Shown: positions 30,889 through 35,227, counted from the first letter of the stretch. The stretch is DNA of 54,228 nt from an uncultured Oscillospiraceae bacterium (GCA_947627745.1 CANQXH010000004.1:1-54228), one strand, 5' to 3'. The notes: a model not told the origin generated them from the sequence alone. A program made the numbers and translations.

Positions 30889-30964
30889 GGACGATTAGCT
30901 CAGCTGGTAGAGCATTCGCTTGACGTGCGAAGGGTCAGCGGTTCGAGTCCGTTATCGTCCACCA
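30889..30964 (+). tRNA. tRNA-Val (anticodon GAC)
   Basis: GGACGAT/ATCGTCC acceptor, D arm GCTCAGCTGGTAGAGC, anticodon arm TTCGC-TTGACGT-GCGAA, T-loop TTCGAGT, encoded CCA. Confidence 0.95.
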
Positions 30965-31002
30965 AAAATCGGCAATCCTCGTTAGAGGGTTGCCGATTTT
31001 TA
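30965..31002 (+). terminator. terminator after tRNA-Val
   Basis: AAAATCGGCAATCCTC-gtta-GAGGGTTGCCGATTTT, 16-bp stem with one G-U. Confidence 0.85.
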
Positions 31003-31391: not shown

Positions 31392-31420
31392 TTGACGGTT
31401 AGGGGAAAAAGTGGCATAAT
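31392..31420 (+). promoter_or_regulatory. promoter TTGACG-17-CATAAT for TIR operon
   Basis: Near-consensus hexamers, 17-nt spacer, 43 nt upstream of GTG start. Confidence 0.75.
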
Positions 31421-31463: not shown

Positions 31464-33272
31464 GTGAGTGCTTCAAAGAAAAAGTATGATATATTTATAT
31501 CCTACCGCCGGGATGGCGGGGAATACACGGCGAAGATCCTTCGGGATAAGCTGGAGGACCTGGGCTACACGGTGTTTTTCGATGTGGAGTCCCTGCGCTC
31601 CGGCAATTTCAACAAGGAACTGTACTCCGTCATTGAGAATTGCCGGGACTTTCTGCTGATCCTGTCTCCCAATGCGCTGGACAGGTGTAAGGATGAGAAC
31701 GACTGGGTGCGTTGTGAGATCGAGAAGGCCCTGCAGTGCGAAAAAAACGTGGTCCCCGTGCTTCTCCGGGGCTTCACTTACCCGGAGGATCTGCCGGCGT
31801 CCATATGCGACGTGCGCTATAAAAACGGTTTGGAGGCGAATTCTCAGTTTTTTGACGCCTTTATCGAAAAGCTCCAGGATTTCCTGGTAACGAAGCCCCC
31901 CTTTTTCCAAAGATTGCGCAAGAACCCGGTTTTCAAGCGGGTGATCCCGACGATCATCACGCTGCTTCTGGTCTTTGCCCTGGGCTTGGGGACATATGTC
32001 ATTTGGGACCACTCTCGGGCCGTTTTTCCCCGAACCTCCGTCGAAAAGAGCGTCACCTCCGAGGTGGTGTATTATGTTGAGAACCACTTGACGGACCTGG
32101 ATGTGATGGCCGCCGGGGTGGAAGAGGCGTTTGACGCCGCGCAGCGTTACATCAGCGCCGGTGTGGAGGACAGGACCGAATTTGAGCTGGCCCTGGAGAT
32201 CGGTTTTGCCGCCCTGGATGACAGCGATATCGACTCCCTTGCCCCAGCCGACGGCTTGCTGGAGCGGGTCGGGGCGCTGAAGGGGACGCCCTTTGATACA
32301 GCGGATTTGTCGGCAATGCATGATGTGGTCCGCATGTCCCGGGAGCAATGGGCCGAGGATCTGGTGTATCTGGATTGGCTGACAGGATCCGACGTCATCC
32401 TCCGGAAGGATGTGCGGCTGAACCTCATAGACCTCTACCGGACGACCTTTGAGGAGGACCTGCGGGGCCACGCCATCAACGCCAACGAGCTCCTGCTGCC
32501 GATCACAGACAGCTCCTTGCTTTCACAGATTAAAAATGACTTTCTGCCCATGCTGCTGCGTGTGCCGCTTTCCGCCGGCACCTGGGAGAGCGACTTGGAT
32601 ACCCTGGAGGCGGAGGCAAAGTCCTGCTATGCCAGGTCCAGGGAGGCGGTGAAGGATATTTCCGCCCTTGTGGGGAACACCAATGTGGCAAATATGAACA
32701 CCCGGGAGAGTCTGATCCGGGAGTACATGATCCAGGGCATGACCCGGGAGGAGGCGGAGACCTTGTTCCTCCAGATGAGCAAGCTTATGGAAACCTACCA
32801 GAAGCTCCTGCCCGAGACGGGCGACAGCGCGGACGTGCTGTGGATCAAGATGGAAAGCGCCATTGAGAATCGGGATTTTGACCGGGCTAAGATCTGCCTC
32901 AACGCCTACGAGGCTGCCTCTGAGGGCGAGGAAGCGCTTATTTCCGCCGTCAGGGCCTTCCTGAGCTACGCGCCCGATGCCGGGCTCAATTATGGGGTGC
33001 TGATCAGCGCTTGTACCGATTCCGAGGAAGCAAACAGCGTTTATGAAATCGGGGATATTGTCATTGCCCTGAACGGCCAGCCCTGCCGGACGGTAGACGA
33101 TTTCTTAGCCTTCGTGAATTCCCTTACAGAGGAGACGGGCTACGTCTACACCGCAACCGTCCTCCGGAATGACGGGCAGGGCGGCATGAATGTTCTGGAG
33201 CTGGATGCGAACCTCGAGGTTTCGATCAATATACGTTCCCTCTCCCTGAACGGGAGTGAGGCAGAAGATTGA
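31464..33272 (+). CDS. TIR domain - TM - helical extracytoplasmic region - PDZ-like protein
   Basis: KKYDIFISYRRDGGEYTAKILRDKLEDLGYTVFFDVESLRSGNF...WVRCEIEKAL (TIR); VIPTIITLLLVFALGLGTYVIW (TM); YEIGDIVIALNGQPCRTVDDFLAFVNSL (PDZ-like). Confidence 0.88.
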   Translation: MSASKKKYDIFISYRRDGGEYTAKILRDKLEDLGYTVFFDVESLRSGNFNKELYSVIENCRDFLLILSPNALDRCKDENDWVRCEIEKALQCEKNVVPVLLRGFTYPEDLPASICDVRYKNGLEANSQFFDAFIEKLQDFLVTKPPFFQRLRKNPVFKRVIPTIITLLLVFALGLGTYVIWDHSRAVFPRTSVEKSVTSEVVYYVENHLTDLDVMAAGVEEAFDAAQRYISAGVEDRTEFELALEIGFAALDDSDIDSLAPADGLLERVGALKGTPFDTADLSAMHDVVRMSREQWAEDLVYLDWLTGSDVILRKDVRLNLIDLYRTTFEEDLRGHAINANELLLPITDSSLLSQIKNDFLPMLLRVPLSAGTWESDLDTLEAEAKSCYARSREAVKDISALVGNTNVANMNTRESLIREYMIQGMTREEAETLFLQMSKLMETYQKLLPETGDSADVLWIKMESAIENRDFDRAKICLNAYEAASEGEEALISAVRAFLSYAPDAGLNYGVLISACTDSEEANSVYEIGDIVIALNGQPCRTVDDFLAFVNSLTEETGYVYTATVLRNDGQGGMNVLELDANLEVSINIRSLSLNGSEAED

Positions 33273-33284
33273 TGGTGGTGGCAT

Positions 33285-33569
33285 ATGGCCTATCACCCCG
33301 CGCCCATTGACCTCTCCGGTGTGACGGTAGAGCGGGAGCTTTTGGAGGATGTGGAACGCATCGCGCGGAACGTCCATGAGACTTGGACCGCGGCGCGCGT
33401 GGAGCAGGGCTGGGTATTCGGCCAGACCGACGATCCGGGGCGGAAGACGCACCGGTGTCTGGTGGACTACGAGGACCTGACGGAGACGGAACGGGACGTG
33501 GACCGGGCGACGGTCCTGGCGACCATCAAAATGCTCAGATACCTGGGCTACGAAACAAAAAAGGAGTGA
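33285..33569 (+). CDS. RyR (ryanodine receptor-type) domain protein, 94 aa
   Basis: YHPAPIDLSGVTV...IARNVHETWTAARVEQGWVFGQTDDPGRKTHRCLVDYEDLTETERDVDRATVLATIKMLRYLGY matches RyR-domain pattern. Confidence 0.85.
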   Translation: MAYHPAPIDLSGVTVERELLEDVERIARNVHETWTAARVEQGWVFGQTDDPGRKTHRCLVDYEDLTETERDVDRATVLATIKMLRYLGYETKKE

Positions 33570-33577
33570 AAAAACAC

Positions 33578-35227
33578 ATGAACGACACGCATTTTCAGCT
33601 AGCGCTGGGCGGCGACCTGCCGGAGGCGGCTGATCAGGCGGCGCTGGTCCTGGAACAGGCCGGCGCCGTATTGGAGACACTGGGGGAAGCCGGAAACGGT
33701 CTGCAACTGCTGATAAGTCCCTCCTACACGGGAGAAGGCTGGGCCTCCTGGGCCGGAACCAGAGGACTGAAGGCCTTCGGTGTTCTCAAAGACGGGGATG
33801 CGCCATGGCCCGGGGAATCTGTCGGGACCCTGGTGATCGATACCGCCATTCGATCCGCTGCCGGGGAGGCCCTGTGCAATGCGGCGGATTTGGTGCTGGC
33901 AGTGTGGGATGAGGATGTGGCCCAGCGCTTCGGCGCGGTGTGGGAGCTGATCGAGCTCTGCCGCCGTCACGGCACGCCCTGCGTGTGGATCTCCTCCCGG
34001 ACGGGGACCCTTTACTGGGTGGGCAGCTCCTGCTTTGAGGAACTGGAACCGGAAAAGCTCCGGAGCGTCATCACTGCCTACGGCAGCGGACCCCTGGAGC
34101 CGGCGCCGGATACTCAGACGCGCATTCCGCTCCTAAAGCTTGGACAGACGCTCCGCCGGGCTTTTTTGAATAAGTACCGGGCGGAAAAGGCCGAGACTAC
34201 TCCGGAGAAGGATAGTCTCCTGCTGGACAGCTTTTCCATGGAATCCGAGGGCGCGGGCTGCGAGCCCGCGCGCAGAAAGCTTCTGGATAAATTCCGGGCC
34301 TTTGACAAGGCCGCCGTGGGGCTGAACAGCCAGTATCAGGCCGTTACATATTGGCGGGCGGTGCTGCCCTTCCTGGCGACAGTGTTTCTGGCTGTCGGCT
34401 TTTATGCCGAGACGATCCTCAGCGTCACAAGTATGTCCTCCGGACTCCGGGCGGCAGTGGCTGGGACGGGCTTTCTGATCCATGGGCTTTTAAATCTCTA
34501 TGTCTTCTTCCTTTCCCGCAACCGGGGCGTCAAGGAAAAGCAGCGAGCCTTTATCGAGAATCGCTACAAAGCGGAGATTCTCCGTGTCCTCATCCATCTG
34601 GCGCCTTACGGCATTGGCGTGGACCTGCGCACCATGTGCGGCGAAAGCGACGCCGCGGCCTTCCGGCGGCTGGCCGCCGAGGACCGCCCCTCGGAGCAGA
34701 AGCTTGACGCCGCTTCCAGCCGCACGGCTCTGGGCCATATTGACGAGATGCTTCAAGACCAGATCTCCTACCACCGCGCCTCTGCGGAGCGATACAGCCG
34801 CGTTGTCACAAGTCTGGACCGGTGGAACAAGGTCATATTCACGGTAGGTTTTGTCACCGTGATCCTCCGGGCGCTTTTGCAGTTTTATGTGTCTTTGTTC
34901 CCTCTGGTAGGCTCCATCAACGGGGCGGACCTGAACGGATATGTGCGCTCCTTTGCCAATATGGCCGCGCTGCTGCTGCCCGGCTGGGCCTCCTATTTTG
35001 CCACGAAGATGAACCTGTGTAATTTCCGCTACAATCTGGATAACCACACTCGCATGGGCACGAGGCTTACCGCCGTTCTGAACCGGGTGCGGGGTCTGGA
35101 AGAACGGGAGTCGGTCCCTGTTGACGTGATGGGATTCGTGGCGGAGGATGTGTCCCGGAGCATGATCCAGGAGGATACGATGGCTTGGGAACACAAGCTC
35201 GGCGACTTCTCGGTGACGGCGCTGTGA
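33578..35227 (+). CDS. SLOG-like Rossmann domain fused to four-TM (SLATT-like) membrane module
   Basis: ADLVLAVWDEDVAQRFGAVWELIELCRRHGTPCVWISS; four hydrophobic segments near 34350-34990; RBS overlaps RyR stop. Confidence 0.75.
   Translation: MNDTHFQLALGGDLPEAADQAALVLEQAGAVLETLGEAGNGLQLLISPSYTGEGWASWAGTRGLKAFGVLKDGDAPWPGESVGTLVIDTAIRSAAGEALCNAADLVLAVWDEDVAQRFGAVWELIELCRRHGTPCVWISSRTGTLYWVGSSCFEELEPEKLRSVITAYGSGPLEPAPDTQTRIPLLKLGQTLRRAFLNKYRAEKAETTPEKDSLLLDSFSMESEGAGCEPARRKLLDKFRAFDKAAVGLNSQYQAVTYWRAVLPFLATVFLAVGFYAETILSVTSMSSGLRAAVAGTGFLIHGLLNLYVFFLSRNRGVKEKQRAFIENRYKAEILRVLIHLAPYGIGVDLRTMCGESDAAAFRRLAAEDRPSEQKLDAASSRTALGHIDEMLQDQISYHRASAERYSRVVTSLDRWNKVIFTVGFVTVILRALLQFYVSLFPLVGSINGADLNGYVRSFANMAALLLPGWASYFATKMNLCNFRYNLDNHTRMGTRLTAVLNRVRGLEERESVPVDVMGFVAEDVSRSMIQEDTMAWEHKLGDFSVTAL

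Follow-up and report, generated by a model that had tools for sequence, protein, structure and literature searches.

What could three tightly packed genes, for a TIR protein, a free-standing ryanodine receptor (RyR) domain and a membrane protein with a SLOG-like domain, be doing together in an uncultured Oscillospiraceae bacterium of the gut Clostridia? The set lies in a stretch of DNA of 54,228 nucleotides (GCA_947627745.1 CANQXH010000004.1:1-54228), which was analysed as a whole and is called the window here. The features are as follows.

30889..30964, + strand, tRNA-Val(gac), 500 nt before the trio
31392..31420, + strand, promoter-like site TTGACG-17-CATAAT, with TG before the -10 element
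31464..33272, + strand, gene 1, TIR-TM-PDZ protein of 602 aa (GTG start; Pfam; orthologues in loci L054 and L056)
31482..31826, + strand, TIR domain of gene 1 (Pfam TIR_2)
31944..32012, + strand, predicted single TM helix of gene 1, residues 161-183
32991..33188, + strand, C-terminal PDZ-like domain of gene 1 (PDZ_6), predicted to lie outside the membrane
33285..33569, + strand, gene 2, stand-alone RyR domain of 94 aa (PF02026)
33578..35227, + strand, gene 3, SLOG-like domain and 4TM module, 549 aa (AF2 model)
33578..34087, + strand, SLOG-like Rossmannoid domain of gene 3, residues 1-170 (AF2, Foldseek, YpsA profile link)
34262..35101, + strand, 4TM module of gene 3 with long helices, residues 229-508, both termini predicted cytosolic (hydropathy, AF2)

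The earlier note on this DNA had described three packed co-directional ORFs just after a tRNA gene, and these are present at 31464-33272, 33285-33569 and 33578-35227 with gaps of 12 and 8 nt. The last ribosome-binding site overlaps the previous stop as that note had claimed, with AGGAG lying over the TGA of the RyR gene. Its near-consensus promoter exists as a site with 10/12 matches, but the two such sites found in the region equal the 2.0 expected from shuffled sequence, and the promoter of the trio can therefore be called no better than plausible. No further defence gene was identified next to the trio, and its three genes include no nucleotidyltransferase, such as the CD-NTase gene by which a CBASS operon is recognised.

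The TIR domain proposed for gene 1 passes the Pfam cut-off (TIR_2, 3.7e-15), and its nearest solved relative is the TIR domain of the animal NADase SARM1 (7e-28). Residue E85 (codon 31716-31718) aligns with SARM1 E642, the catalytic Glu of that enzyme, and this column is invariant in 12/12 RyR-associated TIRs; by alignment, gene 1 has the TIR domain with catalytic Glu that is expected of a TIR NADase. Unlike SARM1, gene 1 has no ARM or SAM domains and carries a TM helix and a PDZ part. The AF2 model of the whole protein is poor (pLDDT 52), and the TM helix is predicted from an AF2 helix of low confidence together with a hydrophobic segment in the sequence. Orthologues of gene 1 occur in L054 (59%) and L056 (45%), and the proposed PDZ domain stands by way of an orthologue with a PDZ_6 match of 2e-6, whereas the match in the gene 1 product itself (0.011) is sub-threshold. 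This region, if extracytoplasmic as predicted, could be a sensor of events at the cell surface.

Gene 2 matches the RyR family PF02026 over the full domain at 2.3e-27, with 95.5 bits against a Pfam cut-off of 27.4, which bears out the RyR assignment. In a May 2026 preprint, RyR proteins of phages were shown to bind 2'/3'cADPR, and one of them, RyDEP, to hydrolyse both, with H75 and D117 in catalysis and W78 and H100 in contact with the ligand (PMC13232231). The four residues are matched in an ungapped alignment by H31, D73, W34 and H56 of gene 2; the comparison was made via Mycobacterium phage Baudelaire gp81, which has the RyDEP residues at the same numbers. The Baudelaire RyR gene sits between phosphoribosyl pyrophosphate transferase and nicotinate ribosyltransferase genes, a setting that resembles the NARP1 context described for RyDEP (PMC13232231). 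In contrast to RyDEP, the RyR of the trio is host-encoded, and its gene is linked to a TIR gene and a membrane protein gene instead of phage NARP1 genes. The H, W and D residues are also retained in RyR relatives from Ruegeria and Pectobacterium phages, the groups from which the RyR 'sponges' of the preprint came (PMC13232231), and they should therefore be taken as marks of ligand handling and not of catalysis. As such, the conserved motif does not prove hydrolysis by the RyR protein of gene 2. Among phage records, about 290 match the RyR-domain consensus (E limit 10); many are annotated as hypothetical and a few are named otherwise, for example as alanyl-tRNA synthetase or anti-CRISPR protein.

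These residues bear directly on one reading of gene 2, namely that it is an off-switch, a host cADPR glycosidase or a sponge that would hold the basal TIR signal below threshold while the SLOG domain alone senses it. Such a role is a real but tentative possibility, for which the ungapped retention of both the catalytic dyad and the ligand residues speaks, but other tested RyDEP homologues bound the ligand without cleaving it despite this conservation (PMC13232231).

Nine homologues were used to build an AF2 model of gene 3 (pLDDT 85, pTM 0.83), which has an alpha/beta domain at residues 5-168 followed by a set of long helices. Family hydropathy peaks at about 271, 302, 432 and 465. Basic residues are placed on the flanking helices and are scarce in both short loops, a pattern that makes four TM helices with their ends in the cytosol likely; the family hydropathy and the model both back the four-TM module that had been proposed. 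The SLOG part of that proposal is supported by the fold, but no curated SLOG model passes on gene 3 or its N-terminal domains, and gene 3 has no significant curated match at all. Foldseek searches against viral models returned YspA/cpYpsA SLOG, Rossmann nucleotide-binding and DprA-like proteins with probabilities of 0.97-1.0 at E > 1e-3, while searches against the PDB were dominated by the long helices and uninformative. Furthermore, when 396 genomes from the order were searched, the gene 3 profile reached YpsA SLOG proteins at about 8e-4, and the segment ADLVLAVWDED...GAVWELIELCRRHGTPC was the part aligned to YpsA. The hhalign probability was 1.85 for a LOG-type SLOG set and 11% for an independent YpsA set; the value of 95.8 for YpsA proteins found by gene 3's own profile is partly circular. 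A SLOG identity is thus likely but not proven, on the predicted fold and a weak YpsA profile link. Membership of the SLATT family was considered and rejected (SLATT_1 0.11, 12.9 bits against 26.3), with no tandem 2TM duplication seen.

Co-occurrence of the genes in other genomes, on which the earlier note had staked its three-gene system, was found for two of the three in every usable case. With RyR and, more weakly, SLOG also supported, neither of the two outcomes that the earlier note had named as refuting its system was seen. A three-sequence profile searched against genome contigs gave eight gene 3 homologues, two of them already known from whole genomes, and an order-level search added one more. 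Counting each locus once gives ten loci including the window, and as L057 begins near a contig end, nine have upstream DNA. In 9/9 of these independent loci the RyR gene lies directly upstream of the SLOG-4TM gene, from overlapping to about 46 nt apart, and this pair is the invariant core. A TIR gene is adjacent in 5/9, with two types of TIR protein: the TIR-TM-PDZ type in the window, L054 and L056, and a divergently oriented TIR-beta-propeller type in L059 and L041/L060. The same core therefore pairs with differing TIR proteins. The four loci in which no TIR gene adjoins the core (L055, L058, L061, L102) suggest that it may answer other signals or a distant TIR. Between L055 (6674-6687) and L056 (2433-4270) the TIR gene is cleanly absent from the former, with flanking DNA 94-96% identical on both sides.

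A fourth gene, present in L055, L056, L057 and L059, encodes a protein with a pair of predicted TM helices at the N-terminus, Rossmann-like domains and an RyR domain at the C-terminus, and in L054 it has a form without the TM part. It appears channel-like from its sequence. This RyR gene belongs to a fuller form of the operon and is missing in the window. Gene 3 is sparsely distributed, being found in 2/149 relatives (the window's own genome counted) and at full length in 2/396 genomes of the order, and the plasmid collection held no relative of it. A weak third match in L003 proved to be a false match to a ribosomal protein gene.

The obligate pairing of RyR with SLOG-4TM favours a different role for gene 2, that of a receptor subunit which would bind the signal and gate the SLOG-4TM protein, in line with the joining of RyR domains to channel proteins seen elsewhere. 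We regard this as a serious possibility, if short of an even chance. The fourth gene, with its RyR domain at the C-terminus of a TM-Rossmann protein, is in keeping with it, as is the Bacteroidetes-like RyR gene described below, which adjoins a 2TM-RCK channel gene. However, gene 3 already has a putative ligand-binding domain of its own, and the conserved dyad of gene 2 is hard to explain for a pure receptor. The persistence of the core in L055, L058, L061 and L102 counts against the off-switch, as RyR is still coupled there to SLOG-4TM with no TIR gene next to it.

RyR genes are also linked to TIR genes beyond the gene 3 family. RyR was present in 28/388 genomes of the class Clostridia, and a TIR gene lies within 2 kb (<=2 kb) of 8/12 stand-alone RyR genes in Clostridia, where 0.06 would be expected from TIR density (P about 2e-17). 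Leaving out two loci found by other routes, 7/10 RyR genes are near a TIR gene (P about 3e-16). The partners differ from locus to locus: some are LRR-TIR proteins or probable kinases, and one is a membrane protein that itself carries an RyR domain. That stand-alone RyR genes adjoin TIR genes in so many unrelated settings is a further point for the off-switch.

Several of these settings can be described individually. In L046:6501-9207 and L047:6501-9179, the gene directly before a TIR gene (TIR-LRR in L046) encodes a protein of 575 aa, with an unassigned N-terminal part and an RyR domain at the C-terminus, and the two loci make up a second recurrent RyR-TIR arrangement. L042:2152-7378 and L043:1-4658 are tight operons in which a multi-TM protein is encoded together with a stand-alone RyR and a TIR protein, so that the RyR-TIR pair has another membrane partner there; the multi-TM protein of L043 has an RyR-like C-terminus and the TIR protein of L042 is a TIR-LRR. 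L034:3254-10118 has possible phosphatase and kinase genes, a stand-alone RyR gene and then a gene for a protein with an internal TIR domain. In addition, L081 (MT836850.1), although labelled 'Bacteriophage sp.', looks like Bacteroidetes DNA with SusC/FecR-like genes, and its RyR gene adjoins one whose 2TM product is channel-like and has a weak match to a Slo-like RCK.

The site of the trio differs between strains. Homology of the window to the related genomes G039, G036 and G026 (93, 92 and 80% nucleotide identity) ends at 30964-30968, the 3' end of tRNA-Val, and the DNA directly 3' of this tRNA-Val(gac) differs in each close relative, including L142 and L143. In G036 the tRNA gene is followed by a transposase-like gene and a Fic-like gene, both named from reading the sequence; the G039 contig stops about 60 nt past the end of homology. 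As the homology stops at the tRNA and different DNA follows, the trio lies in a strain-variable slot. The trio lacks a flanking copy of the tRNA 3' end, and an integrase was not noticed, for which reasons a classic tRNA-integrated island is not shown.

A variable tRNA-adjacent site might be thought to have gathered three unrelated neighbours. The recurrent linkage in several families and the overlapping or near-overlapping genes make this exceedingly improbable, and the counts of TIR genes beside RyR genes given above rule out chance neighbours.

The sparse distribution and the strain-variable site were counted in favour of a defence-type circuit. The trio could alternatively serve no anti-phage purpose, as an envelope or NAD+ stress circuit that would use the extracytoplasmic PDZ region for sensing and adjust membrane ion flow. 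The PDZ-like region predicted outside the cell, the position of the operon among housekeeping genes and the channel-like fourth gene of relatives would suit such a circuit, but sporadic distribution, a strain-variable slot and clean presence or absence of a TIR gene between near relatives are more usual for conflict systems, and phages carry RyR proteins. We consider the stress circuit unlikely.

The closest known system is Thoeris, which consists of a ThsB TIR protein and a ThsA effector of the SIR2-SLOG or TM-macro type. The trio resembles it in that its TIR gene adjoins one for an effector bearing a SLOG-like domain, and a cADPR-type signal is plausible; cADPR isomers activate the SIR2-SLOG ThsA effectors of Thoeris (PMC11204291). 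However, the effector of the trio is SLOG plus 4TM, with no match in gene 3 to a ThsA-type SIR2 or macro domain, and the trio has a host RyR gene and a TM-anchored TIR with PDZ. Thoeris models on gene 1 gave 41.6 bits for NCBIfam ThcB4 against a cut-off of 220, and a PADLOC ThsB match (4e-7) to the generic TIR region alone. Because the effector domains and model scores were tested and differ from those of Thoeris, the trio was filed as a variant of TIR-based nucleotide signalling, distinct from Thoeris. Similarly, the nucleotide-centred SLOG/SLATT conflict systems of Burroughs, Aravind and co-workers (as cited in PMC7159879) draw on the same types of domain as the trio, namely TIR, SLOG and a predicted pore-forming TM effector, but the TM module of gene 3 is unmatched by SLATT models. 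Animal ryanodine receptors are related through their R12 repeats (RyR3 R12 constructs, 2e-27), whereas the RyR of the window is a free protein and no Ca2+ channel. A likeness to RCK channels near RyR domains is seen in the fourth gene of relatives, which joins RyR to a channel-like protein. No paper in the literature searched joins TIR, RyR and SLOG-4TM, although Burroughs 2015 may list the set.

On balance, the trio is probably a nucleotide-signal/membrane-effector operon of the general Thoeris type. The gene 1 TIR, tethered to the membrane and with the PDZ part on its outer side, would turn NAD+ into a cyclic-ADP-ribose-type signal when triggered. The RyR protein would bind this signal and either present it to the SLOG-4TM partner or limit it through sequestration or hydrolysis; gene 3 would respond to the signal with its SLOG domain, and the 4TM part would change membrane permeability, leading to growth stop or death of the infected cell. 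RyR and SLOG-4TM could form the half of the circuit that receives and acts, and the TIR an exchangeable half that sends. The membrane-centred nucleotide-signal module put forward in the earlier note fits the catalytic Glu of the TIR, the RyDEP-type residues of the RyR and the fold of gene 3, while the signal, its direction, the membrane effect and the anti-phage role are the parts that we infer. The likelihoods given for the off-switch and the receptor subunit are estimates of the RyR role within this preferred model, and those of the readings listed here do not sum to one. A more specific version is possible but doubtful: in a self-contained bacterial circuit of cADPR and RyR, the signal would come from a SARM1-like TIR, the host RyR would control it enzymatically or stoichiometrically and SLOG-4TM would be the membrane effector. 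Such a circuit would be the cellular system from which phage RyDEP proteins came, and a prokaryotic equivalent of the control of ryanodine-receptor domains by cADPR.

In the literature searched, RyR proteins have been tied experimentally to 2'/3'cADPR immune signals in one 2026 preprint, in phages (PMC13232231). The window locus and its relatives put host RyR genes beside TIR genes and membrane effectors, and as such offer a ready system for testing whether bacterial RyR domains read or end TIR signals. The locus also allows one to ask if the link between cADPR and the animal ryanodine receptor is rooted in bacteria, and through its recurrence in other bacteria a possible bacterial relative of cyclic-ADP-ribose signalling can be tested directly.
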